Source of the DNA: Candidatus Methylomirabilis sp.
Lineage (GTDB): Bacteria; DYJV01
Reading direction: 5' to 3'
Assembly: GCA_020722945.1 (NCBI GenBank)
Contig: DYJV01000044.1
Span: forward strand, 1-19,802
Length of the DNA stretch: 19,802 nucleotides
This document shows, in pieces, positions 1 to 18,390 of the stretch (positions are counted from its first letter, which is position 1; the number at the start of each line of letters is the position of its first letter). Both the position numbers and the translations under genes were made by a program. The notes under the pieces are model-generated. The model was not told where the DNA came from and did not search any database. It saw nothing but the letters and a program-made list of their open reading frames with translations.

Positions 1-121
1 CAGATACTCCAGCTTTATAGTTTTTAAAACTTTGAAAATTGAAATTGTATAATATTTTTAAAACTACTTTACTTTTATACATTAAGATTTAGATATCAAC
101 TTATTTTCAGAATCTTAGTTA

Positions 122-137
122 TGGCATTTATATTGCA
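122..137 (+). promoter_or_regulatory. sigma-54 (-24/-12) promoter of the first acyl-CoA dehydrogenase gene
   Basis: The sequence reads TGGCAT, five bases, TTGCA. The GG (123-124) and GC (135-136) are exactly ten bases apart, as sigma-54 RNA polymerase requires. Transcription would begin near 148, giving a leader of about 40 bases before the ATG at 189. The same core recurs before two other catabolic transcription units at 3126 and 4892. Sigma-54 promoters need an enhancer-binding activator, and one is encoded at 1379-3028. Confidence 0.85.
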
Positions 138-188
138 TACTAAAATTGTCAAAATATGAAAGAATATTTTAATAAACAGGAGGTTAAA

Positions 189-1346
189 ATGGATTTTCAA
201 TTACCAGAGGAGATAAGAGCCCTTCAGAGTATGGTTAGAGAGTTTGTCCAGAAAGAGATCTCACCTAATGCTGACAAATGGGATGAAGAGCACTATTATC
301 CAAGAGATCTTGTAAAAAAAATGGGTGATTTAGGTTTTTTCGGATGTATTATTGACGAAGAGAATGGTGGTAATGGAATGGGTTTTTTGGCTCAGACAGT
401 ATTAACAGAAGAGCTATCAAGGGGGAGCAGCAGTCTTAGAGTTGCAGTAAATTGCAATGGTGCTGGAAGTGCTTTTGAAATTTACAAATATGGAACCCCA
501 GAAGCAAAGAAAAAATATATACCCAAATTAATGGCAGGTGAATATCTTGGAGCTTTTGCTATCACAGAGCCAAACGCAGGTTCAGATACAATGTCTATGA
601 AGACAGCCGCTGAAGATAAAGGTGACTACTTTTTACTAAATGGTGCTAAAACATGGATATCTAATGCACAAGTTGCTGATGTAGCTATTGTCTATGCTTA
701 TCACGATAGAAGTCAAGGAAGTAAAGGGTTATCCGCTTTTGCTCTTGATATGAAGCAAGAGGGTGTCACAACAACAGCCCTTGACAAACTTGGGACAAGA
801 TCTTCTCCTACAGGTGAAATAATTATGGAGAATGCAAAAGTTCCAAAAGAGAATCTACTCGGCAAATTAGGCGATGGTGTAAAGATTATGTTTTCATCAC
901 TCAACCAGACAAGGCTCTTCACAGCAGCAGGTGCTGTAGGTGTTGCACAGAGCTGTCTTGATGTTACTACAAAGTATTGCACAGAGAGGAATCAGTTTGG
1001 AAAACAGATTGGTGAATTTCAGATGAATCAAGACCTTGTAGCACAAATGGCTGTAGAGATTGAAGCTGCAAGATTACTTACCTACAAAGCAGCATGGCAG
1101 AAAGATCAGGGCGAGCATGGAAATACAGTAGAGACTTGTTTTGCCAAATATTATGCAGGGTTAGTTGCTCAAAAATGTTCACACTCAGCAATGAAGATAC
1201 TCGGTTCTTACGGATACTCTCCTGAATACCCTGTAGCACGTCTTTACAGAGATGCAGTTCTTTATCAAATAGTTGAAGGGACAGAAAATATTCAGAAATG
1301 GATAATTGCTCTTGACCAATTAGGCTACAGAAAAGCAAACAAATAA
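189..1346 (+). CDS. acyl-CoA dehydrogenase, glutaryl-CoA dehydrogenase group (non-decarboxylating signature)
   Basis: This is a cytoplasmic FAD enzyme of the acyl-CoA dehydrogenase family, 385 aa and full length. The start at 189 is chosen over the in-frame ATG at 156 because CAGGAGG lies just before it and family members begin MDF. Visible motifs are ITEPNAGSD (flavin and substrate loop), ERNQFGKQI, and the catalytic Glu363 in VEGTENI. As I recall it, the glutaryl-CoA dehydrogenase of Desulfococcus multivorans is very similar along its whole length, including the C-terminal LDQLG.RKAN. Arg84 matches the human Arg94 that binds the glutaryl carboxylate. Ser77 and Val362 sit where decarboxylating enzymes have Glu87 and Tyr369, as in non-decarboxylating forms that stop at glutaconyl-CoA. 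It probably acts on the glutaryl-CoA released by the thiolase at 5032. Another dicarboxyl- or cyclic acyl-CoA substrate is possible. It is a single-gene unit between a sigma-54 promoter and a terminator. Confidence 0.85.
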   Translation: MDFQLPEEIRALQSMVREFVQKEISPNADKWDEEHYYPRDLVKKMGDLGFFGCIIDEENGGNGMGFLAQTVLTEELSRGSSSLRVAVNCNGAGSAFEIYKYGTPEAKKKYIPKLMAGEYLGAFAITEPNAGSDTMSMKTAAEDKGDYFLLNGAKTWISNAQVADVAIVYAYHDRSQGSKGLSAFALDMKQEGVTTTALDKLGTRSSPTGEIIMENAKVPKENLLGKLGDGVKIMFSSLNQTRLFTAAGAVGVAQSCLDVTTKYCTERNQFGKQIGEFQMNQDLVAQMAVEIEAARLLTYKAAWQKDQGEHGNTVETCFAKYYAGLVAQKCSHSAMKILGSYGYSPEYPVARLYRDAVLYQIVEGTENIQKWIIALDQLGYRKANK

Positions 1347-1373
1347 AAAAGTGGCTAAAAGCCACTTTTTTAT
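1346..1373. terminator. bidirectional intrinsic terminator
   Basis: The hairpin has stem GTGGCT (1351-1356), loop AAA and AGCCAC (1360-1365). An A-run precedes it and a T-run follows it, so it can end both the dehydrogenase mRNA and the convergent regulator mRNA that stops at 1379. Confidence 0.85.
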
Positions 1374-1378
1374 TTCTA

Positions 1379-3028
1379 TTAATCTTTTATCTTATATTTA
1401 TTTAATTTCTTATGAAGACCTGTCCTATGTATTCCAAGAAGTTCAGCAGTTTTTGTTTTGTTGCCATTTGTAACTTTGAGGGCTTTAATTATCGATTCCC
1501 GCTCTCTTTTCTCCATCTCCTCTTTAAGTCTGCTCACAGAACTAGTTGAGTAATTCTCAACTGTTTCAGGATTTATCTCAATATTTTCAAAGATATATGA
1601 AGGCAATGTTTTTATAGTGAGTTTATTTGAATCTGCTTTGTATATTGAAAGCTCTATTACATTTTTTAACTCCCTTATATTACCAGGCCATTTGTAAGAT
1701 TTTAAGATGTTTATATATTGGGGCTCTATCTCTCTAACTTCTGTATAATTAGATAAGATATTGAGAAGGTGGTAAGCTAATTTTTCAATATCACCCCGTC
1801 TCTCCCTGAGTGGTGGAATCTTTATTGGAACAGTGTAGATTCTATAATACAGATCTTCTCTGAATTGATTTTTTTCTACCATTTTCTTTAGATTGCGGTT
1901 AGTAGCACAGATAAGCCTAAAATCAACCTTTTGAGGTGATGATTTACCTATCCTCTCAACCTCTTTCTCCTGTAAAACTCTCAAAAGTTTAGCTTGGAGG
2001 CTAAGTGGGAGATCACCTATCTCATCAAGGAAAATAGTCCCACCATTTGCAAGCTCAAACTTTCCCGGTTTCCCATGTTTTAATGCCCCTGTAAAAGCAC
2101 CCTCAGTGTATCCAAAGAGTTCAGACTCTGCAAGCTCTGAGGGGATTGAGGCACAGTTAACCTTGACAAAAGGTTTATTTCTTCTAATACTTTCAAGGTG
2201 AATAGCATGTGCAAAAAGCTCTTTCCCTGTCCCACTCTCACCAAGAAGTATTACAGTAGAATCTGTAGGTGCTATCTTCTTGGCAAATACTTTACCTGCA
2301 AGAAATTCATCATCTTCACCTATAAGATCATCAAATGTGTAGTGGGCATTATGCATATTTACTATCTGTGTTTTATATTTGTTTATCTCATTTTTTAGGT
2401 TTTGAAGCTCTTTTGTAAGCTGATCAATGTCTTTGGCTTCCTTGAATATTATCTTCCCTATTGCACCATAGGTATTGTTTTTGTAGTTTACAGGAATTCT
2501 TGATACAACTCTCAACTCATCTTTAAATTTCTGGACTTTACCTATCTCCTCTTTCCCTGTTTTTGCAACAAGGTGTAATTTGGAGTTGGGGATAAGATTA
2601 GTGATATGTTTACCAACATATTTGGATAACTTTGCATTAAAAAATCTTTCATTTAAAGAGTTGTAATACTTTATTCTACCCTCTTTGTCTACAAGAATGA
2701 CTCCTTCATAAGGGTTGTTAACCAGTGTGTGAAGAGAGAGAACACCTTCAATAGATGAGAAGAATGTTGAGACAATCTCATTTTTTACAAAATCAACAAT
2801 AAAGCATACTTTAAAATCAAAAGCCTGATTTTGAAATAACTTTATATAAAATTTTACTCCTCGCTGATCAAGAAAAGAGGTTTTCCCATTAACAATATAT
2901 CCTGCAACATTAAAATCTTCACCAAATATCTCTTTATAATTGATATTTTTGAATATTAAATCTTTATCCTGAATTATTACTGCTGGAATTTTTACATAAT
3001 CTAAAATATCTTTTAATAAACTAAGCAT
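1379..3028 (-). CDS. sigma-54-dependent transcriptional activator with PAS sensor domain
   Basis: This is a bacterial enhancer-binding protein of 549 aa. Residues about 1-95 form a PAS-like sensor. A second PAS domain spans about 100-195 (NNPYEGVILVDKEGRI). A short coiled-coil linker follows at about 200-225. The AAA+ domain has Walker A GESGTGKE (263-270), the sigma-54 contact loop GAFTGA (310-315) and Walker B IFLDEIGD (332-339). A Fis-type helix-turn-helix ends the protein (NKTKTAELLGIHRTGLHKKL). There is no receiver domain, so it probably senses a ligand directly instead of being phosphorylated. GGAGAG at 3035-3040 supports the start. The three nearby sigma-54 promoters are its likely targets, and an aromatic acid or CoA ester is its likely signal. 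Both points are inference from position. It is transcribed divergently from the second dehydrogenase gene. Confidence 0.93.
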   Translation of the reverse strand: MLSLLKDILDYVKIPAVIIQDKDLIFKNINYKEIFGEDFNVAGYIVNGKTSFLDQRGVKFYIKLFQNQAFDFKVCFIVDFVKNEIVSTFFSSIEGVLSLHTLVNNPYEGVILVDKEGRIKYYNSLNERFFNAKLSKYVGKHITNLIPNSKLHLVAKTGKEEIGKVQKFKDELRVVSRIPVNYKNNTYGAIGKIIFKEAKDIDQLTKELQNLKNEINKYKTQIVNMHNAHYTFDDLIGEDDEFLAGKVFAKKIAPTDSTVILLGESGTGKELFAHAIHLESIRRNKPFVKVNCASIPSELAESELFGYTEGAFTGALKHGKPGKFELANGGTIFLDEIGDLPLSLQAKLLRVLQEKEVERIGKSSPQKVDFRLICATNRNLKKMVEKNQFREDLYYRIYTVPIKIPPLRERRGDIEKLAYHLLNILSNYTEVREIEPQYINILKSYKWPGNIRELKNVIELSIYKADSNKLTIKTLPSYIFENIEINPETVENYSTSSVSRLKEEMEKRERESIIKALKVTNGNKTKTAELLGIHRTGLHKKLNKYKIKD

Positions 3029-3047
3029 AAAAATCTCTCCATTTTAT

Positions 3048-3070
3048 TGTTGTGATTTTTATACACTACA
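3048..3070. promoter_or_regulatory. candidate enhancer/autoregulatory dyad
   Basis: TGTTGTG and CACTACA form an inverted repeat (6 of 7 pairs) around a nine-base AT spacer. Its centre is about 90 bases upstream of the predicted start from the sigma-54 promoter at 3126, a usual distance for an activator site. It also covers the -10 box of the divergent regulator gene. A partial match (TGT-N15-CTAC) occurs at 46-67, at nearly the same distance from the sigma-54 promoter at 122. One good and one weak copy do not prove a binding site. Confidence 0.3.
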
Positions 3071-3086
3071 TTATATTTTTAGTCAA
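3058..3086 (-). promoter_or_regulatory. sigma-70-type promoter of the activator gene
   Basis: On the minus strand TTGACT (3081-3086) and TATAAA (3058-3063) are separated by 17 bases, each matching consensus at five of six positions. Transcription would start near 3051 with a leader of about 23 bases containing the ribosome site. The -10 box lies inside the dyad at 3048-3070, so an activator bound there would also repress its own gene. Confidence 0.65.
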
Positions 3087-3125
3087 GTCATATCATATTT
3101 AACAATTATATTTATAAGGTTGTAA

Positions 3126-3141
3126 TGGCATATTAATTGCA
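3126..3141 (+). promoter_or_regulatory. sigma-54 (-24/-12) promoter of the second acyl-CoA dehydrogenase gene
   Basis: TGGCAT, ATTAA, TTGCA: GG (3127-3128) and GC (3139-3140) are ten bases apart. The core is identical to the promoters at 122 and 4892 except in the five-base spacer. The predicted transcript starts near 3152, about 53 bases before the ATG. Confidence 0.85.
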
Positions 3142-3204
3142 AAACCTTTTTTTACTATACTTAATATTTATAGAATTCATCTTTCTCAAATTTAGGACTC
3201 CCCT

Positions 3205-4371
3205 ATGGAAACAAACAAAATAGATTATATATACCTTGATTCTATGCTCAAAGAGGATGAAATATCTTTCAGAGAACAGCTAAAGAGTTTTGTTGATCAA
3301 AGCATTTTACCTGTGTTTGAAAATACTCTACCAGATATAAATTCAGTCAAAAATATAATCTACGAATTGGGGAGAAACAAATTAATAGGTTCTTTTATAA
3401 ATGGTTACGATTGCCCCGGATATAGTGCATTAAAACAGGGGTTAATATGTCAGGAAATAGAGAGAGCAGACGGAGGATTAAGAAGTTTTCTAACTACACA
3501 AGGTTCCCTTGTAATGTTTGCAATCTGGAAATTTGGTTCAGACATCCAGAAGAAAAAGTATCTTCAAAAAATGGGAAAGTGTGAAATAATAGGAGCTTTT
3601 GGCCTTACTGAAGAGGATGCAAATGGCAACCCTGCACAAATGAAAACATTTGCTTATAAAGATGGGGGAAAATGGATAGTAACTGGTAAAAAAATGTGGA
3701 TAACCAACGCACCAATCGCTGATATTGCCATTATATGGGCAAAAACAGACAATGGGATCAAGGCGTTTATATTGGAGATGGATAGTAAAGGGGTGACACT
3801 CGTCCACAACAAAGTTCATACATCGTTAAGGGGACTTATAACATCGGCAATAGAGCTCAATGATGTAATAATCCCAGAAAAAAATATTCTTCCAAATGTA
3901 GATGGTCTCAAATCAGCCTTAATATGCCTTTCAGAGAAGAGATACGGTGTTGCTTGGGGAGCACTCGGTGCTGCAACAGACTGCTACACCGAATCTATGA
4001 ATTATGCAAAAGAGAGGATAATTTTTGGGAAACCTCTTGTTTCTTCACAATTAGTTCAAAAAAAACTTGTAAATATGCTGATAGAACTAACCAAATCAAA
4101 AGCAGTTACTATTCAGGTAGCAAGGATAAAAGATAAGGGTAAAGATTTCAGACACGAAATGGTCTCATTCATAGCCCTGAATAACCTTACCAAATCCGTT
4201 GAAATAGCAAGGGAAGCAAAGGATATACATGGAATAAACGGTATTTCAACAAAATCAAGAGTAATAAGGCACCTTCTAAATCTCGAATCTCTTGATGGGT
4301 ATGAAGGGACAAATGATCTTTATACTTTAATAGTAGGTAGAGATATAACAGGCATGCAGGCATTCTTCTAA
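3205..4371 (+). CDS. glutaryl-CoA dehydrogenase-like acyl-CoA dehydrogenase (decarboxylating signature, divergent flavin loop)
   Basis: This is a second FAD-dependent acyl-CoA dehydrogenase, 388 aa, only distantly like the one at 189. Its middle resembles human-type glutaryl-CoA dehydrogenase: IERADGGLRS followed by TTQGSLVMFAIWKFGS. Glu86, Arg93 and Tyr366-Glu367 (in GYEGTND) correspond to human Glu87, Arg94, Tyr369 and catalytic Glu370, the set linked to decarboxylation of glutaryl-CoA to crotonyl-CoA. The usual TEPNSGSD loop reads TEEDANGN here, with changes at normally conserved flavin/CoA-contact positions, so activity or substrate may differ. AGGA about seven bases before the ATG serves as ribosome site. 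The gene stands alone behind its own sigma-54 promoter. The family assignment is firm; the precise substrate is inferred. Confidence 0.8.
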   Translation: METNKIDYIYLDSMLKEDEISFREQLKSFVDQSILPVFENTLPDINSVKNIIYELGRNKLIGSFINGYDCPGYSALKQGLICQEIERADGGLRSFLTTQGSLVMFAIWKFGSDIQKKKYLQKMGKCEIIGAFGLTEEDANGNPAQMKTFAYKDGGKWIVTGKKMWITNAPIADIAIIWAKTDNGIKAFILEMDSKGVTLVHNKVHTSLRGLITSAIELNDVIIPEKNILPNVDGLKSALICLSEKRYGVAWGALGAATDCYTESMNYAKERIIFGKPLVSSQLVQKKLVNMLIELTKSKAVTIQVARIKDKGKDFRHEMVSFIALNNLTKSVEIAREAKDIHGINGISTKSRVIRHLLNLESLDGYEGTNDLYTLIVGRDITGMQAFF

Positions 4372-4380
4372 CTTCATCAA

Positions 4381-4416
4381 TGTAGATTATAATATACAGA
4401 AGTGTATTTTCTACAC
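4381..4416. repeat. nested inverted repeats after the second dehydrogenase gene
   Basis: TGTAGA (4381-4386) pairs with TCTACA (4410-4415), and inside them ATACA (4394-4398) pairs with TGTAT (4403-4407). An alternative perfect pair is GTGTA (4402-4406) with TACAC (4412-4416). No T-run follows, so it is a poor terminator. A protein-binding site for the downstream operon is possible, with half-sites resembling the dyad at 3048. Confidence 0.35.
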
Positions 4417-4891
4417 AAAAAGGTTAAAATATTAAAAATTTTAAATGTTCTTGATTCAAAGAGAAATAAATATTATCTGAGTTAACCTTATTCACTCACT
4501 TGCGTTAAATAAAAAATAAAATTAATTTTGCAACATTTAAAATTTAAAATAAAGTAACTAAAATTAAGTATTAAATGATTATCGTTTCTTTACATACTAT
4601 GATCTTTTAAAATTTTAATTTTAATTTTAATGTCTGCATAGTGCATCCCCCAACTGTTTCATCTAACAACTTTTAAAAGGGTAAATTTGAAGTTCTAAAG
4701 ATAGTCATTTAAGATAGATTTGAGGTAGAAAAACTTTCAAGTAGGGATATTTATAGATAACAGAGCTTTTAAATTTTTAATCTTTTTCTTAAAATCAGAT
4801 AGATGTTAGGGAGTAACTCTTTGATTATCAGTTTGATTTTGCAAAATTTCTCTTATTCTGAGCTATTTTGGGCAATTTTATTTACAACTAA

Positions 4892-4907
4892 TGGCATAAT
4901 CATTGCA
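4892..4907 (+). promoter_or_regulatory. sigma-54 (-24/-12) promoter of the benzoyl-CoA pathway operon
   Basis: TGGCAT, AATCA, TTGCA: GG (4893-4894) and GC (4905-4906) are ten bases apart. The predicted start near 4918 leaves a leader of about 114 bases before the thiolase ATG. It is the third copy of the same core in this window and probably drives all five genes to the terminator at 10106. Confidence 0.85.
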
Positions 4908-5031
4908 ATATATAATCTACAAATTTTTAAATATTCCCAGCTCAACCTTAATCATAAATTATATTGAAAAATTATTAAACAATCTACATCAAAATAAATT
5001 GAAATTAAAATAATTAAAAAAGGAGAAATAA

Positions 5032-6225
5032 ATGAGAAATTTTAGCGACATAGTATTTGTAAGTGCTGTAAGAACACCTATGGGAAGTTTTGGAGGAACA
5101 TTGAGAGAAATGCCTGTTTACGAAATGGCTTCTTTTGCTGCAAAGGAAGCCATCAAGAGAGCAAATTTAAATGGCGACGAAATTGATGAATCTATCATTG
5201 GGAACTGTCGTCAAGCAGGAAATAGGGTAAACCCTGGAAGGACAGTAGCATTGAAAGCTGGATGTGCACAAAATATGCCGGGATTTACAATCAACAAAGC
5301 TTGTCCAGCAGGTCTAAAAGCAATATCAATGGCAGTAACACAAATTGCAGTTGAGCAAGGGGATATAATACTTTGCGGTGGCATGGAATCTATGAGTACA
5401 ATCCCTTTCCTCCTCAGAAATGTCCGATGGGATGGTTTTAGAATGGGTGACAAAGTTCTCGAAGATGGCTGGAGCGACAGTCAAGATCCTGTGGCACTTG
5501 TCAGCATGGGGATGACTGCTGAGAATGTTGCTGATAAATGGGGTATAACAAAAGTAGAGATGGACGAATATGCAGTTCGTTCACATAGACTTGCTTACGA
5601 AGCTCAACAGAAAGGTTATTTTGATGAAGAGATTACACCTGTTGTTATCCCTGCTACAAATAAAAAACCTGAAAAGATATTTGCCAAAGATGAGTCAATA
5701 AAACCTGAAACAACAATGGAGATTCTCTCAAAATTGAGACCTGCATTTAAAAAAGATGGAATGGTTACTGCTGGGAATGCTTGCGGTCTGACTGACGGAG
5801 CTGCAATGCTTATAGCAATGACAAGAGAGAAAGCAAAAGAGAAAGGATTGAAACCTCTTTTCTCAGTTATAGATTTTGTTTCATCTGCTGTTGATGGGAA
5901 ATATATGGGTGAAGGGCCAGGTGTTGCAATCCCAAAACTCCTCAAAAGAACAAAAATGGAGATAAGTGATATAGATCTTTTTGAGATAAATGAAGCCTTC
6001 GCATCACAAGTTCTTGCAAATGTTAAAATGTTGAATCTCGATATTAATAAGCTCAATCTCAACGGTGGGGCAATTGCTCTTGGTCACCCCACAGGGTGCA
6101 GTGGTGCAAGAATAGTAGTTACACTTTACCACCTATTAAAAAGGATGGACAAAGAGATTGGTTGTGCTTCAATATGCGGCGGTGGCGGTGCAACAATGGC
6201 AATGCTTATAAAAAGAGAAAGTTAA
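5032..6225 (+). CDS. thiolase (acetyl-CoA acyltransferase), probably 3-oxopimelyl-CoA thiolase
   Basis: This is a 397 aa thiolase of normal length. The nucleophile is Cys91 in NKACPAGLKA, followed by NEAFA, His352 in GGAIALGHPTGCSGAR and Cys382 in CGGGG. The residues after the nucleophile (CPAG) differ from the common CGSG/CASG. In this operon the likely reaction is CoA-dependent cleavage of 3-oxopimelyl-CoA to glutaryl-CoA and acetyl-CoA, although thiolase sequence alone does not fix chain length. AAAGGAGAA lies about five bases before the ATG. It is the first gene of the operon and is followed 18 bases later by the dehydrogenase that would make its substrate. Confidence 0.9.
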   Translation: MRNFSDIVFVSAVRTPMGSFGGTLREMPVYEMASFAAKEAIKRANLNGDEIDESIIGNCRQAGNRVNPGRTVALKAGCAQNMPGFTINKACPAGLKAISMAVTQIAVEQGDIILCGGMESMSTIPFLLRNVRWDGFRMGDKVLEDGWSDSQDPVALVSMGMTAENVADKWGITKVEMDEYAVRSHRLAYEAQQKGYFDEEITPVVIPATNKKPEKIFAKDESIKPETTMEILSKLRPAFKKDGMVTAGNACGLTDGAAMLIAMTREKAKEKGLKPLFSVIDFVSSAVDGKYMGEGPGVAIPKLLKRTKMEISDIDLFEINEAFASQVLANVKMLNLDINKLNLNGGAIALGHPTGCSGARIVVTLYHLLKRMDKEIGCASICGGGGATMAMLIKRES

Positions 6226-6243
6226 TTCTTCATGGGGGGAAAA

Positions 6244-6990
6244 ATGTTAAATTTATCTGGAAAAGTTGCAATAGTTACAGGCGGGACAAGAGGTATAGGA
6301 AAATCGATAGTTATGAAACTTGCCGAGCAGGGAGCAGCAGTTGCTCTTAACTATCGCAAAAGCTCAAAAGAGGCTGATGAGTTAGTAAATGAAATTAAAA
6401 GCAAAGGGAGAAAAGCAATTGCTGTTCAAGCTGATGTATCAGATTTTAATGGTGCACAAAATATGGTAAAAAGAGTAGTTGAAGAGTTGGGAAGTGTTGA
6501 TATTCTTGTTACAAATGCCGGAATGAACTGGGACGGTGTTGTGTGGAAGATGACTGAAGAGCAGTGGGACAATGTTATCAATATAGATCTTAAAGGGACA
6601 TTTAATTACATACGAGCAGTTGCACCCTTTATGAAAGACAAAAATTGGGGTAGAATTATTACTATCACATCAATTAATGGATTACGGGGTAAATTTGGTC
6701 AGATAAACTACTCTGCTGCAAAGGGTGGAGTAGTTGCTATGACAAAAGCTTGTGCAAAAGATCTTGGGAAATTTGGGGTTACTGCAAACTCTGTGGCTCC
6801 AGGATTTATCCTTACAGAGATGGGTGAATCTATGCCTGACGAATTTAAACAAGCAGCTATAAATGAAAGTGCCCTTAAAAAAGCTGGTAAACCTGACGAT
6901 ATAGCTAATCTTGTTGTTTTTCTTTCGTCAGAAGAGGCAGGGCATATAACAGGTGAAGTAATCAAAGTTGACGGCGGTCAATATATCTAA
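6244..6990 (+). CDS. short-chain dehydrogenase, probable 3-hydroxypimelyl-CoA dehydrogenase (FabG-like)
   Basis: This is a 248 aa classical short-chain dehydrogenase/reductase. It has the cofactor motif TGGTRGIG (12-19), NAG (91-93), and the catalytic Ser143, Tyr156 and Lys160 in YSAAK. The start at 6244 is preferred to the ATG at 6232, because the earlier ATG overlaps the GGGGGGA ribosome site that fits 6244. By sequence it would pass as a 3-oxoacyl-ACP reductase (FabG). Its place between the thiolase and the ring-pathway genes points to NAD(P)-linked oxidation of 3-hydroxypimelyl-CoA to 3-oxopimelyl-CoA, the step after Oah ring opening. The role in vivo is inferred from context. Confidence 0.85.
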   Translation: MLNLSGKVAIVTGGTRGIGKSIVMKLAEQGAAVALNYRKSSKEADELVNEIKSKGRKAIAVQADVSDFNGAQNMVKRVVEELGSVDILVTNAGMNWDGVVWKMTEEQWDNVINIDLKGTFNYIRAVAPFMKDKNWGRIITITSINGLRGKFGQINYSAAKGGVVAMTKACAKDLGKFGVTANSVAPGFILTEMGESMPDEFKQAAINESALKKAGKPDDIANLVVFLSSEEAGHITGEVIKVDGGQYI

Positions 6991-7017
6991 TCATCTAAAA
7001 AATTTTGGAGGTAGTTT

Positions 7018-7788
7018 ATGGATTACAAATTCATTAAAGTTGAAAGGAAAGATAACACTGTTTACCTCAATATCAACAAACCACCATACAATGTTCTCGA
7101 TATCCCAACAATGAAAGAGATAAATAAAGCTCTCGACTCTCTTATTAGTGATAACGAGATAAATATACTTGTATTTGGCTCTGAAGGTGATAAAGCCTTC
7201 TCTGCTGGAGTTGATGTTGCTGATCATACAGAAGATAAAGTAGATGAAATGATCCAAGTATTCCACGGAATTTTCAGAAGACTTGACAAATTTAAAGGTA
7301 TCACAATTGCAGCAGTAAAAGGTGCAACTCTTGGTGGGGGCTGCGAAGTAGCAATATTTTGTGATATGATATTTGCAGCAGACAACCTAAAAATAGGACA
7401 GCCTGAAATAAAACTTGCTGTTTTCCCACCTATAGCACTTGCTGTATTACCAAAAATAATCCCTCAAAAGAAAGCTTTTGAGATTATAGTTGGCGGAGAA
7501 GTATTTAAAGCTAATGAGGCATTGGCTATGGGGCTTGTAAACAAAGTCGTTCCAATAGCTGACTTTAATGCAGAACTTGCTAAATTTGTAGGGACATTTT
7601 CATCTTTAAGTGGCAGTGCCCTCAAAATTACAAAGGAAGCATTCAAGAAAGTTAACTCTCTCTCTTTCAATGAGTGCCTTGCAAATGTAGAGGATATTTA
7701 TCTTAATAGACTTATGAAGTTAGAAGATGCAGAAGAGGGTTTAAAATCTTTTATGGATAAAAGAAAACCTATTTGGAAAAATAAATAA
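7018..7788 (+). CDS. dch: cyclohexa-1,5-diene-1-carbonyl-CoA hydratase (Dch/BamR type)
   Basis: This is a crotonase-superfamily protein of 256 aa, the usual Dch length. The oxyanion-hole segments are FSAGVDVADH (61-70) and GATLGGGCEVAIFCD (102-116). The FSAGVDV.DH form is typical of dienoyl-CoA hydratases of the benzoyl-CoA pathway. It adds water to cyclohexa-1,5-diene-1-carbonyl-CoA, giving 6-hydroxycyclohex-1-ene-1-carbonyl-CoA. GGAGG lies a few bases before the ATG. The next two genes encode the two enzymes that act after it, which makes the assignment strong. Confidence 0.92.
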   Translation: MDYKFIKVERKDNTVYLNINKPPYNVLDIPTMKEINKALDSLISDNEINILVFGSEGDKAFSAGVDVADHTEDKVDEMIQVFHGIFRRLDKFKGITIAAVKGATLGGGCEVAIFCDMIFAADNLKIGQPEIKLAVFPPIALAVLPKIIPQKKAFEIIVGGEVFKANEALAMGLVNKVVPIADFNAELAKFVGTFSSLSGSALKITKEAFKKVNSLSFNECLANVEDIYLNRLMKLEDAEEGLKSFMDKRKPIWKNK

Positions 7789-7807
7789 AATAGCAAAGGA
7801 GGAAACT

Positions 7808-8908
7808 ATGAGTTGCAGTTGTTCTAATTCTTGTAAAGTTCCAGATAAAATAAAAACATGGCAGATGGTAGAGCCGGGGAAACTTGAATTAAAAGAGATT
7901 CCCGTTCCAGAGCTTGGAGATAATGATGTTTTAGTTGAGGTTGCAGGTTGTGGAGTTTGCCACACTGATCTTGGTTACTTTTACGACGGAGTTCCTACTG
8001 TAAGCAAGCCACCACTTACACTTGGTCATGAGATAAGTGGTAAAATTGTTGCCGCAGGGAAAAATAAAGGTAATATGATAGGAAAAGAAGTAATTATTCC
8101 TGCTGTTATGCCTTGCAATCAGTGTGAAATATGTAAATCTGGAAGAGGTAACAGATGTTTATTCCAAAAAATGCCCGGTAATAGTATCGGTATTTATGGT
8201 GGATTTTCAAGTCATATACCTGTTCCTGCTGATGATCTATGTATTGTTACAGAGAGAAAACTTCCTCTTGAAAAGATAGCAGTTATTGCTGATGCAGTGA
8301 CCACACCTTATCAAGCTGCTATGAGAGCAAATATTCAAAAAGGTGATAGAGTTGTTGTAATTGGTGCAACAGGTGGTGTAGGGACATACATGGTTCAGGT
8401 AGCCAAAGCATTAGGTGCTGCCTCTGTAGTAGGAATGGCAAGAAGTGTGGAGAAACTTGCAAGAATAAAGCAGTATGGATGTGATTTCACTATCAACATC
8501 AAAGACAAAACCTTTAAAGATATAAAAGAAGAGCTCAAAAATTACTGCAAAGAAAATAAACTTCCTCACAATTATGGCTGGAAAATTTTTGAAGTAACAG
8601 GGACAAAATTTGGTCAAGAGCTCGGTCTTGAGCTTCTCTCATTTGTTGGTAAGCTTGTGCTTGTAGGTTACGGTATGCATAAAATTGAATATATGTTCTC
8701 AAAAGTAATGGCTTTTGATGCTGAGATCATAGGGACATGGGGCTGTTTGCCAAAATATTACAATAATGTTTTAAAGATGGTAAATGAAGGTAAAATAGTA
8801 ATGGAGCCATTTGTTGATGTCAGACCTATGAGCAAAATCAAAGAGGCATTTGAAGATGCTCATAGTGGGAAAATTTTACAAAGAATAATATTAAAACCTG
8901 ATTTTTAG
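7808..8908 (+). CDS. had: 6-hydroxycyclohex-1-ene-1-carbonyl-CoA dehydrogenase (Had/BamQ type)
   Basis: This is a zinc-dependent medium-chain alcohol dehydrogenase of 366 aa. Residues 18-62 (WQMVEPGK, then GCGVCHTDLGYFYDGV) match the Had signature as I know it from Thauera. The catalytic zinc site includes Cys51 and His74-Glu75 (LGHE). Cys103, Cys106, Cys109 and Cys117 form the structural zinc site. The NAD domain has GATGGVGTYMVQ. It oxidises the 6-hydroxy group to give 6-oxocyclohex-1-ene-1-carbonyl-CoA. AAAGGAGG fixes the start at 7808. That start leaves an N-terminal tail with Cys3, Cys5 and Cys9 that the Thauera enzyme, as I recall it, lacks. Confidence 0.95.
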   Translation: MSCSCSNSCKVPDKIKTWQMVEPGKLELKEIPVPELGDNDVLVEVAGCGVCHTDLGYFYDGVPTVSKPPLTLGHEISGKIVAAGKNKGNMIGKEVIIPAVMPCNQCEICKSGRGNRCLFQKMPGNSIGIYGGFSSHIPVPADDLCIVTERKLPLEKIAVIADAVTTPYQAAMRANIQKGDRVVVIGATGGVGTYMVQVAKALGAASVVGMARSVEKLARIKQYGCDFTINIKDKTFKDIKEELKNYCKENKLPHNYGWKIFEVTGTKFGQELGLELLSFVGKLVLVGYGMHKIEYMFSKVMAFDAEIIGTWGCLPKYYNNVLKMVNEGKIVMEPFVDVRPMSKIKEAFEDAHSGKILQRIILKPDF

Positions 8909-8940
8909 TAATAAAAAAATTATTTTATTAGGAGGATTTT

Positions 8941-10077
8941 ATGAGTTTAGGATGGGTGCCAAGAGATAATAAGGTGAAAAATCATGACCTTTTTGGAAGT
9001 CAGCATTGGGGCAAATTTGAAGATGCACCATGCGTTGTTTATGAGAAAAAACCTTTAATTGACGACAAAGGTAATATTGTAGAGGGTCTTTATTCAGCAT
9101 GGATATGGCTCAACAATCCAAATCAATACAACTCTTACACCACAGAGATGGTAAAGGGTGTAATATCTGGTTTTGGTGCTGCGTCAGGCGATAGAAGTGT
9201 TGTAGCTGTAGTTTTTACGGCTGTTGGAGACAAAGCATTCTGCACAGGTGGGAATACAAAGGAATATTCTGAGTATTACAGCAAAAGACCTAATGAGTAT
9301 GGCGAATATATGGATCTTTTCAATGGTATGGTTGATGCTATACTCAACTGTAAAAAACCTACAATATGTAGGGTAAACGGAATGAGAGTTGCAGGTGGCC
9401 AAGAAATTGGTATGGCAAATGACCTTACAATTACTTCTGACCTTGCTATCTTCGGACAAGCAGGACCAAAACATGGTTCAGCTCCAGATGGTGGTTCTTC
9501 AGATTTTCTACCATGGTTCTTGTCAATGGAAGATGCTATGTATAACTGCGTTTCTTGCGAAATGTGGAGTGCATACAAAATGAAGAGACTTGGTCTTGTT
9601 ACAAAAGTTGTTCCTGTTCTTAAAAAAGATGGTAAATTTGTAAGAAACCCTCTTGTTTACACAGACGAATTTATAAAAGATGGCGAAATAGTTTATGGAG
9701 ATAACAAAAGTGGCGATGAAGCTAAAAAAGCTAAAGAGTTGATTTCTCAGTGTGAGATTGATCTTTCATTGCTTGATCTTGAAGTTAACAAACTCATATG
9801 GAAATTTGCAAATCTCTTCCCCGGCTGTTTAATCAAATCAATCGATGGAATCAGAGCTAAAAAGAAATTCTTCTGGGATCAGATGAAATTACCAAATAGA
9901 CATTGGCTCGCTGCAAATATGATGGGTGAAGCGTATCTTGGATTTGGTGCATTTAATACCAAAAAGATAACTGGTCAGGATACTATTGATTTTATCGAAT
10001 ACAGAAAACTTATTGCACAAGCTGCAGATATGAATGATGAAGCTTTTGCAAGAGTTTTTGCCAAACCAAAACAGTAA
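8941..10077 (+). CDS. bamA: 6-oxocyclohex-1-ene-1-carbonyl-CoA hydrolase (ring-opening, Oah/BamA)
   Basis: This is a 378 aa crotonase-superfamily hydrolase, longer than ordinary crotonases as is usual for Oah/BamA. Diagnostic segments include WIWLNNPNQYNSYTTEMVKG, AFCTGGNTKEYSEYY (about 99-113), GMRVAGGQEIGMANDL (about 147-162) and GQAGPKHGSAPDGGSSDF. It adds two waters to 6-oxocyclohex-1-ene-1-carbonyl-CoA, opening the ring to 3-hydroxypimelyl-CoA. BamA is the accepted marker gene for anaerobic degradation of aromatic compounds. AGGAGG lies before the ATG. It is the last gene of the operon and a strong terminator follows. Confidence 0.97.
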   Translation: MSLGWVPRDNKVKNHDLFGSQHWGKFEDAPCVVYEKKPLIDDKGNIVEGLYSAWIWLNNPNQYNSYTTEMVKGVISGFGAASGDRSVVAVVFTAVGDKAFCTGGNTKEYSEYYSKRPNEYGEYMDLFNGMVDAILNCKKPTICRVNGMRVAGGQEIGMANDLTITSDLAIFGQAGPKHGSAPDGGSSDFLPWFLSMEDAMYNCVSCEMWSAYKMKRLGLVTKVVPVLKKDGKFVRNPLVYTDEFIKDGEIVYGDNKSGDEAKKAKELISQCEIDLSLLDLEVNKLIWKFANLFPGCLIKSIDGIRAKKKFFWDQMKLPNRHWLAANMMGEAYLGFGAFNTKKITGQDTIDFIEYRKLIAQAADMNDEAFARVFAKPKQ

Positions 10078-10098
10078 CAGAGTAACAATATCTTAAAT

Positions 10099-10135
10099 AA
10101 AAAAAGAGCAGTGCAAACTGCTCTTTTTTTATTTT
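10099..10135. terminator. bidirectional intrinsic terminator between bamA and ssb
   Basis: The hairpin GAGCAGT (10106-10112), loop GCAA, ACTGCTC (10117-10123) is flanked by an A-run and a T-run. It therefore serves the plus-strand operon and the convergent ssb transcript. Confidence 0.92.
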
Positions 10136-10163
10136 AAAAACAAAGAAGTTACAACTTCATAAT

Positions 10164-10571
10164 CTAAAATGGTATCTCATCATCAACAGAATTTTGAGGT
10201 TCTTGAAACTCACTTGATGGGTGTGAAGATGCTTCATTTTTACCGTCAAGCATAATCATGTTGTTTGCCAAGACTTCCGTGGTATATTTCTTCTCACCAT
10301 TCTGATCTGTCCAGCTTCTGGTGCGGAGTTTCCCTTCAACATAGACTAATTTCCCCTTTGTGAGATATTCACCACATATTTCAGCAAGCTTTCCAAAAGC
10401 AACAATTTTTACCCACTCTGTGATAGTTTGGAGGTTATTGTTTTTGTCTTTGTAAGTCTCGTCAGTAGCTATGCTAAAATTGGCAACACCTTTCCCATCA
10501 GAAGAATACCTGATTTCAGGATTTTTACCAAGCCTCCCAATAAGGATGACTTTATTTAGACTTTTTGCCAT
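10164..10571 (-). CDS. ssb: single-stranded DNA-binding protein
   Basis: This is a 135 aa SSB. It has an N-terminal OB fold (LNKVILIGRLGKNPEIRY at 5-22, then WVKIVAFGKLAEICGEYL) and a short flexible tail ending in DDEIPF, the acidic tip that recruits replication and repair partners. It coats single-stranded DNA as a tetramer. AGAGGGAT before the ATG is the ribosome site, and the upstream zinc-ribbon gene stops one base before this start, so the two are probably translationally coupled. SSB is more often found beside rpsF/rpsR, so this partner is unusual. Confidence 0.97.
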   Translation of the reverse strand: MAKSLNKVILIGRLGKNPEIRYSSDGKGVANFSIATDETYKDKNNNLQTITEWVKIVAFGKLAEICGEYLTKGKLVYVEGKLRTRSWTDQNGEKKYTTEVLANNMIMLDGKNEASSHPSSEFQEPQNSVDDEIPF

Positions 10572-10572
10572 A

Positions 10573-11148
10573 TCAATCCCTCTTATTAGTTTCTAATATA
10601 CTTTCTAAAGATATTGAATCATCATCTTGGTCATCTGTAGATATATTTGGAGTAGCAGATGAAGTAGCTTTGGGTGGTGAGCTACTTGTTTCGAGGAGTG
10701 AAGAGATATTAAGATCATCAGATTGATCATCACTAACTTCCAAAGTAGCTGGCTTATTAAGATTGCTGGTTAGAAATAGTTTGACTTGAGTATCCTCTAT
10801 CACTAAATCTATACTCTCCTCATTATCTTTTGAAGAATCTGGTGCAACAACCGGCTGAATAACATTTGGGGAAGAGTCAACTGATGGGGTGCTTTTGTCT
10901 GAAGATGATTTGTCAGGGAGAGAGGTTTCACTATTTTCTAATTTATCCACCTGATTTTTGGAAGTATCAGAAACAGCTTCACTAATCTTTGACTCTACCT
11001 TGCCACTTTCAACAAGATAATTATTGTTTGGACCAAGTTCATAAAATATAATTGAGAGCTTTTTAAAAACAGATGAAAAATCTGTATTACACTTAGGACA
11101 AAAATGGTAAGAATCAAATGTGGTATAATTACATTTTGGACACTTCAT
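10573..11148 (-). CDS. zinc-ribbon protein with acidic Ser-rich tail, function unknown
   Basis: This is a 191 aa protein I do not recognise. Residues 1-20 are a zinc ribbon (CPKC at 3-6, CPKC at 17-20). The rest, from about 45, is low-complexity, acidic and rich in Ser, Asp and Pro, probably disordered, with runs such as SSSPPKATSSATP. There is no signal peptide or membrane segment. The tail resembles an extended acidic interaction region. Its gene precedes ssb with a one-base gap, so a role around DNA is conceivable but unproven. No Shine-Dalgarno is visible before the ATG, while the promoter at 11155-11183 would start transcription at about the start codon. Confidence 0.8.
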   Translation of the reverse strand: MKCPKCNYTTFDSYHFCPKCNTDFSSVFKKLSIIFYELGPNNNYLVESGKVESKISEAVSDTSKNQVDKLENSETSLPDKSSSDKSTPSVDSSPNVIQPVVAPDSSKDNEESIDLVIEDTQVKLFLTSNLNKPATLEVSDDQSDDLNISSLLETSSSPPKATSSATPNISTDDQDDDSISLESILETNKRD

Positions 11149-16168: not shown

Positions 16169-16242
16169 CTAAAGAGATATTCTGCAAACTATTAAGCTGA
16201 TTCAATATGATTTTTTATCTTTATCGGAGCAAAAAAAGATAC

Positions 16243-16999
16243 ATGACTAAAGAGAATTCAATTAAATTATTTGAATCAAAAAAAATTAGAGTTCATCGTG
16301 ATGATGAACAAGAAAAATGGGACTTCTCAATTATTGATATTATTGAGACATTGACAGGAAGTAGTAACTCTCGTAGATACTGGAGTGACTTAAAACGCAA
16401 GCTGATAAAGGAAGGATTTAATCAGTTAGGCGTAATCATCGTACAACTGAAATTGGAATCATCAGACGGTAAAAAATATGTAACAGATTGCATAAATACA
16501 GAAGGACTACTTAGAATTATTCAATCGATCCCATCACCCAAAGCTGAACCATTTAAATTATGGTTAGCAAAAGTAGGATATAAAAGGATTGAAGGGACCA
16601 AAGATCCAGAATTGGCATTTGATAGAGCTATGGAAACATATCTGAAAAAGTATATTCCAAAAATTGGATAAATCAACGATTAAAAAGCATCGAGGTTCGG
16701 AAAGAATTGACAGATGAATGGTAAGAAAGGTATAGGAGTATGCTATTCTGACTGATGAAATCACGAAAGTCTGGGCAGGAATCACAACCAAGCAGTACAG
16801 GGATTTCAAAAAATTAAAAAAAGAAAACCTTCGTGATAATATGACTAATTTGGAGTTAGTATTGAACATGCTTACGGAAACTTCAACAACAGAACTATCA
16901 AAGAAAAAGAAACCACGAACATTTAATGAAAATAAAATAATTGCTAAAAAAGGTGGAGCAGTTGCAGGTGATGCACGAAAAAATTTGGAAAAAAATTAG
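16243..16999 (+). pseudogene. Bro-N/DinD-like antirepressor-family gene, frameshifted
   Basis: Intact members are about 250-270 aa. Here reading starts well at the ATG at 16243 (MTKENSIKLFESKKIRVH, RRYWSDLKRKL, SIPSPKAEPFKLWLAKVGY, AFDRAMETYLKK). It shifts frame near 16650 and meets a stop at 16669-16671. Homology resumes in other frames: WINQRLKSIEVRKELTDEW with a stop after it, then EYAILTDEITKVWAGITTKQ, NMTNLELVLNML, and an end at 16997. At least two frameshifts are needed, so the gene is broken. The family is common in prophages and mobile islands (Bro-N domain, antirepressors and DNA-damage-inducible DinD relatives). A longer in-frame start at 16207 exists, but family proteins begin at MTKENS. 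Confidence 0.8.
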
Positions 17000-17256
17000 G
17001 AAATAGTTGGAAATGTTACCAAAATGTTTGAAATAAAGCACAAAAACACAATAGCAGCTATGCCCAATAGACTATGAAAGAGCAATTTGAAACATTAGTG
17101 TCCCGCAGAAAAATTGTAGCGTGTGATAGTGGCTAAGCCCGCACTCCCTTACGACACTTACACTCAAACGTTACAAGTAAGTCGAAGAAACGACAGTGCG
17201 GAGAATAACAGCCTTAATCTAAGCATATTTTGCGGAGAAAGTTTTATTTGCGGAGA
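17000..17256. other. gene-free interval between the antirepressor pseudogene and fic
   Basis: No gene is seen. The stretch holds the large dyad at 17131-17213. The string GCGGAGAA occurs three times (near 17198, 17232 and 17251), the last directly before the fic start. Base composition is less AT-biased than in the chromosome to the left. Confidence 0.5.
17131..17213. repeat. large imperfect dyad, attC-like
   Basis: Nested arms are GGCT/AGCC (17131-17134, 17210-17213), CCGCACT/AGTGCGG (17139-17145, 17195-17201) and CGAC-AC-TTAC/GTAAGTCG (17152-17161, 17177-17184), the last with two extrahelical bases. The central loop contains CAAACGTT. Total length is about 83 bases, within the range of attC sites. 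The terminal core does not fit the consensus GTTRRRY well. Confidence 0.45.
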
Positions 17257-18390
17257 ATGAAAATTTATATACACGAAAAAGAAAACTGGACAGACTTCAC
17301 TTGGGATAATAAGAAAGTGATGATAAAACTTGGTGAAGTTAGAAATCAACAGGGCAGACTTCTTGGTAAAATGGAATCACTGGGCTTTGATTTGCAGAAT
17401 GAAGCGGTTTTGAATACTCTTACTTTAGATGTTATAAAATCATCTGAGATCGAAGGTGAGTTTTTAGAAATAGAACAAGTACGTTCTTCAATTGCTCGTC
17501 GACTAGGAATTGATATTGCAGGAGCAGTGGAATCGGAACGCCATGTTGACGGAATAGTTGGAATGATGCTTGATGCTACACAGAGGTATGATTTGCCTCT
17601 GACTAAAGACAGATTATTTGGTTGGCATTCTGCATTGTTCCCTTCAGGATGGAGTAATCTATATAAAATCACAGTTGCTGACTGGAGAAAAGACACGACT
17701 GGTCCTATGCAAGTTGTGTCAGGGCCTATGGGAAAAGAAAAAGTACACTATCAAGCTCCAAGCTCAGATAGGATAGAAGTAGAAATGAAAAAATTCTTAG
17801 ACTGGTATGAAAACGAGAAAGAAACAGATTTGGTTCTAAAAGCAGCTATTGCTCATTTATGGTTCGTGACAATTCATCCATTTGACGATGGAAACGGACG
17901 AATTGCAAGAGCAATTACGGATATGACATTGGCACGTTCTGACAAAAGTATCAGGCGATTCTACAGTATGTCATCACAAATTAGAGCCGAAAGGAAACAG
18001 TATTATGAAAAACTTGAAAAAACACAAAAAGGAAATTTAGATATAACAGAATGGATTTTGTGGTTTTTACAATGTCTAATAAATGCTATTGACTCCACAA
18101 ATTGGACTTTATCGAAAATACTTCATAAAGCAGAATTTTGGAAAATACATTCCACCACAATTCTCAATGATAGGCAACAAAAAATAATAAATATACTACT
18201 TGATGGATTTGATGGTAAGTTAACAACCTCGAAATGGGGAAAAATTAATAAGTGCTCACAAGATACTGCTCTTCGAGATATTCAAGATTTGATAAAGAAG
18301 GATATTTTACAAAAAGAAGCAAGTGGTGGACGAAGTACAAATTATGAACTAAAAGAAATGCCAGTCGGCAACAATGTATATACAAAATAG
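17257..18390 (+). CDS. Fic family protein (DUF4172 N terminus, Fic AMP-transferase, winged helix)
   Basis: This is a 377 aa protein, intact. The start at 17257 gives the family N terminus MKIYIHEKENWTDFTWD. An in-frame TTG at 17230 would add nine residues. An inhibitory helix motif S-x-x-x-E-G (SSEIEG, residues 62-67) precedes the catalytic loop HPFDDGNGRIAR (207-218), a perfect HPFx(D/E)GNGRxxR. The C-terminal 90 residues form a winged helix-turn-helix (ILNDRQQKIINILLDGF, TALRDIQDLIKKDIL). Such class II Fic proteins attach AMP from ATP to target hydroxyls and are self-inhibited by the motif. The target is unknown. No separate antitoxin gene is seen, as expected for this class. It lies in the foreign-looking block, and a toxin or stress role is possible. 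Confidence 0.92.
   Translation: MKIYIHEKENWTDFTWDNKKVMIKLGEVRNQQGRLLGKMESLGFDLQNEAVLNTLTLDVIKSSEIEGEFLEIEQVRSSIARRLGIDIAGAVESERHVDGIVGMMLDATQRYDLPLTKDRLFGWHSALFPSGWSNLYKITVADWRKDTTGPMQVVSGPMGKEKVHYQAPSSDRIEVEMKKFLDWYENEKETDLVLKAAIAHLWFVTIHPFDDGNGRIARAITDMTLARSDKSIRRFYSMSSQIRAERKQYYEKLEKTQKGNLDITEWILWFLQCLINAIDSTNWTLSKILHKAEFWKIHSTTILNDRQQKIINILLDGFDGKLTTSKWGKINKCSQDTALRDIQDLIKKDILQKEASGGRSTNYELKEMPVGNNVYTK

Follow-up and report, generated by a model that had tools for sequence, protein, structure and literature searches.

A predicted sigma-54 regulon tying benzoate and glutarate breakdown genes to a PAS-domain activator in Candidatus Methylomirabilis sp.

To our knowledge, only a small number of regulators have been identified for the anaerobic breakdown of aromatic compounds. 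The stretch of DNA analysed here (the window, 19,802 nucleotides) is contig DYJV01000044.1, or C69, of the Candidatus Methylomirabilis sp. genome GCA_020722945.1, an assembly of 2.51 Mb in 184 contigs with 5.8% estimated contamination (the target genome). It carries two acyl-CoA dehydrogenase genes (acd1 and acd2), the gene of a PAS-type sigma-54 activator between them, and the thl-sdr-ech-had-bamA operon, and the same promoter core, TGGCAT-N5-TTGCA, precedes acd1, acd2 and the operon (Table 1). We have compared this genome with the sole other genome of the same phylum that was considered, which belongs to a different family and is 92% complete (the comparison genome). We consider it likely that RpoN acts at the three cores and that the one-component activator encoded at 1379-3028 switches on the regulon to which these promoters belong, probably through a palindrome of the form TGT-N12-ACA. 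Genes of benzoate and glutarate breakdown would thereby probably be tied into one switchable set, run by a single PAS-domain activator.

Table 1. Predicted promoters, candidate activator sites and genes of the window. L149 denotes a locus of the comparison genome; E values and bit scores are from structure and profile searches.
Feature	Position	Strand	Remarks
P1, predicted sigma-54 -24/-12 core before acd1, TGGCATTTATATTGCA	122..137	+	counterpart L149:8138, TGGCATCTTAGTTGCA
acd1, predicted glutaryl-CoA dehydrogenase, non-decarboxylating Desulfococcus type	189..1346	+	NF045552, 619 bits vs cut-off 470; 3mpi, E 1.8e-150; 70% identity to comparison genome
Hairpin, terminator-like repeat between the convergent acd1 and activator genes	1341..1375	-	shuffles yield similar overall numbers of such sites
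Sigma-54 activator, PAS-AAA+(GAFTGA)-HTH_8, no receiver domain	1379..3028	-	549 aa; 71% identical orthologue in comparison genome
Weak candidate activator site, TGATTTTTATACACTACA	3053..3070	+	73 nt before P2; scores 6.2 with the matrix, no higher than control promoters
P2, predicted sigma-54 core before acd2, TGGCATATTAATTGCA	3126..3141	+	counterpart L149:11199
acd2, acyl-CoA dehydrogenase, decarboxylating glutaryl-CoA dehydrogenase (GCDH) family	3205..4371	+	4w9u, 1siq/1sir, E ~1e-92; 60% identity to comparison genome
Candidate activator site (upstream activating sequence, UAS), TGTAGATTATAATATACA	4381..4398	+	just 3' of acd2; conserved at L149:12415, TGTAGATTAAATAATACA; matrix seed
P3, predicted sigma-54 core before thl-sdr-ech-had-bamA, TGGCATAATCATTGCA	4892..4907	+	counterpart L149:12512
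Second candidate site, TGCAATATATAATCTACA	4904..4921	+	overlaps P3 start region; held-out match, score 13.9
thl, acetyl-CoA C-acyltransferase	5032..6225	+	TIGR01930, 447 bits vs cut-off 240.55
sdr, FabG/PhaB-like 3-hydroxyacyl-CoA dehydrogenase candidate	6232..6990	+	77% identity to comparison genome
ech, enoyl-CoA hydratase family, dienoyl-CoA hydratase candidate	7018..7788	+	TIGR03189, 143 bits, under cut-off 292.5; 71% identity to comparison genome
had/bamQ, 6-hydroxycyclohex-1-ene-1-carbonyl-CoA dehydrogenase	7808..8908	+	TIGR03201, 493 bits vs cut-off 338.65
oah/bamA, 6-oxocyclohex-1-ene-1-carbonyl-CoA hydrolase	8941..10077	+	TIGR03200, 582 bits vs cut-off 464.45; none in comparison genome

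All three cores are present at 122, 3126 and 4892 exactly as the original prediction had stated, and each is intergenic and stands before a catabolic unit, 67 nt from the acd1 ATG (189), 79 nt from acd2 and 140 nt from the thl operon. The open reading frame (ORF) call for acd1 begins at 156, which is too long, because a good ribosome-binding site, aggaggttaaaATG, and the orthologue in the comparison genome support a start at 189. The cores show what is expected of sigma-54 promoters, namely the correct spacing between the -24 GG and the -12 GC, a position upstream of genes, and conservation. In a first-order Markov simulation of the window, exact cores arose at 0.5 per Mb and never more than once in any of 300 simulated windows; three within 5 kb are far from chance. 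The whole target genome holds four exact copies and none of the reversed core that served as a control. In the comparison genome, the order is the same as in the window (core-acd1, the activator on the opposite strand, core-acd2 and core-sdr-ech), and its only three exact cores genome-wide occupy these same three positions with different spacers. These sites had to be compared by position because MAFFT alignments of the orthologous intergenic regions left the cores unaligned. The shared order and the sole three cores with different spacers are strong evidence that the cores are functional. That they have no promoter function, being an AT-rich repeat or one due to chance, is hardly credible, as it is nearly refuted by this positional conservation in another family, and the genome count of four against none also speaks against it. 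As the cores are conserved in a second family and rpoN is present in both genomes (PF04552, E 1.3e-57 in the target and 1.7e-61 in the comparison genome), they are very probably real sigma-54 promoters, as predicted from sequence. The acd2 core of the comparison genome (L149:11199-11227) lies so near the ATG that hardly any leader would be left on the predicted transcript.

The core had also been taken to define a small regulon, a view that is not borne out. The fourth exact copy in the target genome sits between flhB and flhA, in front of flhA. The relaxed pattern TGGCA-N6-TTGC has 32 matches in this genome versus 2 for the control, and the intergenic ones lie mostly before flagellar genes (flgB, fliS, fliD, flgL, flgD, flgH and others, named from their translations). 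Furthermore, TTGGCATNNNNNTTGCT has been reported as the general sigma-54 consensus for Clostridiales (PMC6615313). Because of the flhA copy, the flagellar matches and this published consensus, the core was rejected as a regulon marker; TGGCAT-N5-TTGCA is an ordinary -24/-12 box of this genome. Among all sigma-54 cores of the target genome, the catabolic ones mostly end in TTGCA and the flagellar ones mostly in TTGCT, flhA being an exception.

Further catabolic genes behind such cores were found on other contigs of the target genome. A full-length bamB (C141; 4z3w, E 2e-296), with further class II reductase subunits alongside, starts 61 nt after a core, TGGTATAATGTTTGCA, that is one base off the exact one, and a tandem pair of candidate activator sites lies upstream of it; the expectation that the regulon would reach the benzoyl-CoA reductase genes is thus upheld, and BamB, Had and BamA of the class II benzoyl-CoA reductase pathway are all present in this genome. 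A benzoate-CoA ligase, which a genome scan had been expected to find as well, was not identified, no gene scoring above the TIGR02262 cut-off for this enzyme in a profile search. The gene of the glutaconyl-CoA decarboxylase alpha subunit, gcdA (C48; 1pix, E 2e-220), has the core TGGCAATTTTTTTGCA, and it makes metabolic sense that a non-decarboxylating glutaryl-CoA dehydrogenase and a glutaconyl-CoA decarboxylase form a single route to crotonyl-CoA; acd1 clears the curated NF045552 cut-off, with 3mpi as its nearest structure, and is predicted to be such a dehydrogenase. A cluster on C100 encodes ketopantoate-reductase-like, hydratase, 3-hydroxyacyl-CoA dehydrogenase, CoA ligase and IorAB-like proteins, and its core, TGGCAATATTTTTGCA, is conserved on contig C6 of the comparison genome; no substrate could be assigned from sequence to the two CoA ligases on C100. 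A molybdenum hydroxylase operon on C19 (L251:66-4000) has the core TGGTATTTTATTTGC, with a palindrome 208 nt upstream of it. Its large subunit matches the 4-hydroxybenzoyl-CoA reductase alpha subunit best, yet below the cut-off, and this 4-hydroxybenzoyl-CoA-reductase-like operon is perhaps an extra member of the regulon.

It is a palindrome, not the core, that appears to group these scattered genes. The 18-base sequence TGTAtATTA-TAATaTACA (TGT-N12-ACA) was spotted by eye just 3' of the acd2 stop in both genomes; a de novo expectation-maximization search for motifs in seven upstream regions did not clearly exceed its dinucleotide-shuffled controls. A matrix seeded only with the two orthologous sites of the P3 region (window 4381 and L149 12415) was scanned over 1.18 Mb of the two genomes, 107 kb of it intergenic, and held-out hits were counted as successes when they fell between -250 and +130 relative to a catabolic sigma-54 core. 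All five held-out intergenic matches scoring at least 15 fell there (expected 0.10, P 3e-9), two of them at C6, two at C100 and one at gcdA, as did eight out of ten scoring at least 13.5 (expected 0.20); at ten flagellar sigma-54 promoters the score was at most 7.0. With a refined matrix, tandem pairs were found over the same 1.18 Mb at bamB (-120/-103 relative to the core), C100 (-142/-124) and gcdA (+51/+103), as well as at C6 (-169/-124) and P3 (-97/-71) of the comparison genome, only one unrelated pair occurring elsewhere; the bamB pair was never used in building the matrix. In a whole-genome pattern search, all four matches in the comparison genome and 6 of 13 in the target genome lay within these loci, but the matrix test is cleaner, because these sites had helped to shape the pattern. 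The palindrome is thus enriched at the predicted target promoters. UAS-like sites also turned up within genes, once in that of the activator (1834) and twice in one on C168 (L255), and were discounted as probably due to chance.

The activator gene lies among the cores, as had been noted, and the domain content of its product (PF00158, E 1.8e-69; HTH_8, E 8.3e-14; Walker A GESGTGKE and GAFTGA) is that of a sigma-54 activator. Its recognition helix, HRTGLHKKLNKYKIK, is identical in the two genomes. The sensor gave a PAS match in 13 of 13 relatives, and a structure model suggests a PAS-like order of strands and helices; single-sequence folding of this region yielded no usable fold (pLDDT 32). The best family match of the protein is PrdR (NF041552), yet at 458.8 bits it stays below the curated cut-off of 795 for that family. 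Distant homologues in Bacillaceae and Nitrospirae also adjoin sigma-54 cores, at which the palindrome was not found. The original prediction had held that one ligand-sensing activator, and not a two-component pair, controls these genes. This is plausible for a PAS-AAA+-Fis protein in which a domain search gave no Response_reg match, and no kinase ORF of BamVW-type control was found within window 1-10600. The prediction is no more than plausible, since the target genome encodes ten sigma-54 activators, and a clear receiver domain is present in five or more of the remaining nine. One of these, for instance a response regulator acting as in BamVW, the pair to which control of benzoate degradation in Geobacter has been ascribed (PMC4424350), might control the promoters, the PAS activator being unrelated or secondary. 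We regard this as quite improbable, as in both families the gene of the PAS activator lies between acd1 and acd2 and is conserved together with the three promoters, and no other activator was seen within the catabolic clusters examined.

Several observations weigh against the proposed link between activator, palindrome and promoters. The PAS match in the activator itself (PF00989, E 3e-4) scores 21.2, slightly under the gathering score of 22.6. The strong site of P3, at 4381, lies 511 nt upstream of that promoter. P1 and P2 of the window have no good palindrome nearby (6.2 at P2; the region upstream of P1 is cut by the contig end), nor does the matrix find one at P1 of the comparison genome, where the counterpart of the weak P2 site, TGAAGATTATTTACTACA, scores 14.9 but was itself in the matrix. 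The bamB sites are singly weak (9.6 and 9.1). At gcdA the sites follow the core, an uncommon place for a UAS and one that would fit the operator of another regulator. The binomial P values overstate independence, because flanking sites come in pairs, and it is binning that connects C141, C48, C100 and C19 with the window, in an assembly that is fragmented and carries the estimated contamination given above. It could be asked whether the promoters are real while the palindrome is the operator of another regulator, such as an acyl-CoA-responsive repressor, the activator using other sites or no specific ones. The downstream position at gcdA, the P3 site that overlaps the start region and the want of good sites at P1 and P2 would suit a repressor. 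On the other hand, the tandem pairs at C100, bamB, and C6 and P3 of the comparison genome lie 71-169 nt upstream of the -24 box, which is the usual enhancer position, all four pattern matches of the comparison genome fall within the activator's own cluster and C6, and sites of the TGT-N12-ACA form are what Fis-type activators typically use: TGT-N10-12-ACA sites have been described for PrdR and for 14 further activator groups, with UASs mostly 100-250 bp upstream (PMC6615313). We judge the operator alternative unlikely.

What the regulon is for can be approached through the comparison genome, which keeps the activator, the three promoters, acd1, acd2, sdr and ech. No BamA was found in this 92% complete genome, where the contig ends just after ech, and in place of BamB it holds only distant aldehyde-oxidoreductase relatives. 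Because the activator, promoters and these four genes occur there without BamA and BamB, the conserved theme of the regulon looks like glutaryl-CoA and beta-oxidation metabolism, and the benzoyl-CoA genes look like later recruits. The original prediction, that the whole benzoyl-CoA lower pathway is switched on by one activator, is thus supported insofar as bamB is reached, while the conserved function appears to be a different one. A regulon specific for benzoate or benzoyl-CoA, sensing one of these compounds, would account for had and bamA in the P3 operon, and for the core and site shared by bamB and perhaps the 4-hydroxybenzoyl-CoA-reductase-like operon; in view of the gene content of the comparison genome, with the limits just given, we find it rather doubtful. 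Two types of glutaryl-CoA dehydrogenase gene (156-1346, non-decarboxylating; 3205-4371, GCDH family) adjoin each other in both families, each behind a sigma-54 core. The comparison genome has no thiolase gene after acd2, and the 660-base intergenic stretch upstream of P3 (window 4371-5032) is about 500 bases longer than its counterpart there. Where the window is less densely coding, it contains an antirepressor-like ORF (16207-16671) and a Fic-family-like protein (HPFDDGNGRIAR, 17230-18390), both named by eye only.

In the mechanism that we propose, the N-terminal PAS region of the activator would sense an intracellular pathway signal, which may be an intermediate common to both genomes (glutaryl-CoA or a related acyl-CoA or acid) and not necessarily benzoate. 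Through its Fis-type domain the protein would most likely bind TGTAtATTA-TAATaTACA, the copies of which usually come in tandem pairs, 70-170 nt before the -24 box. On the signal, its GAFTGA-containing AAA+ ATPase would remodel the closed sigma-54 polymerase complex and so activate RpoN polymerase at all these promoters. The predicted regulon of the target genome would comprise the bamB operon, thl-sdr-ech-had-bamA, acd1, acd2, gcdA, the C100 cluster and perhaps the C19 operon. More tentatively, and with the balance slightly against it, the PAS activator may be an ancestral glutaryl-CoA/beta-oxidation switch into which benzoyl-CoA degradation was plugged by acquiring TGT-N12-ACA sites; the set so recruited might, with the same reserve, include the class II reductase, ring opening and possibly 4-hydroxybenzoyl-CoA reduction. 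If this is true, the breakdown of aromatic and of dicarboxylic acids is under the joint command of a single acyl-CoA-type signal.

With its defined DNA site, the predicted one-component regulon of sigma-54 promoters would provide a testable genome-wide wiring diagram for a little-studied and sparsely sampled lineage, with one switch over benzoyl-CoA reductase, the glutaryl-CoA dehydrogenases and glutaconyl-CoA decarboxylase, and would suggest how an aromatic pathway can join an existing regulon. The motif can also be used to seek missing parts, e.g. the benzoate-CoA ligase. What is new here is the shared TGT-N12-ACA candidate activator-site motif linking benzoate and glutarate genes.

In Geobacter metallireducens, BamVW controls the bam genes (Juarez et al. 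2010, as cited in PMC4424350 and PMC6678401), and bam genes have been reported to be under sigma-54 regulation in Geobacteraceae (PMC11497800); apart from this two-component pair, the sources consulted name a repressor as regulator of anaerobic aromatic degradation in Geobacter. The target genome likewise has genes of the class II benzoyl-CoA pathway, but its cluster has a one-component PAS activator, and its predicted regulon adds two glutaryl-CoA dehydrogenases and gcdA. BzdR, BadR/BadM and BgeR also control anaerobic benzoyl-CoA degradation, but in the sources consulted they are not described as sigma-54 activators of this kind, BzdR and BgeR being titled repressors (PMC4424350, PMC6678401). 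A similar architecture is found in the sigma-54/PAS-activator regulons of Clostridiales, including the PrdR group, in which a one-component PAS-AAA+-Fis activator is encoded beside its targets, with the consensus cited above and TGT-N10-12-ACA UASs, often several per promoter (Nie et al. 2019, PMC6615313). No benzoyl-CoA or glutaryl-CoA genes appear among the targets described there, which are those of Stickland reactions and others, and the main text of that paper does not contain 'glutar'. Finally, the mapped promoters of the Bss and hbs genes of Geotalea daltonii, TGGCATGTCTTCTGCT and TGGCATGGCTCCTGCT, have almost the same core as ours and divergent Fis-family sigma-54 activators, but they drive toluene and benzene activation and not the benzoyl-CoA lower pathway (PMC11497800).

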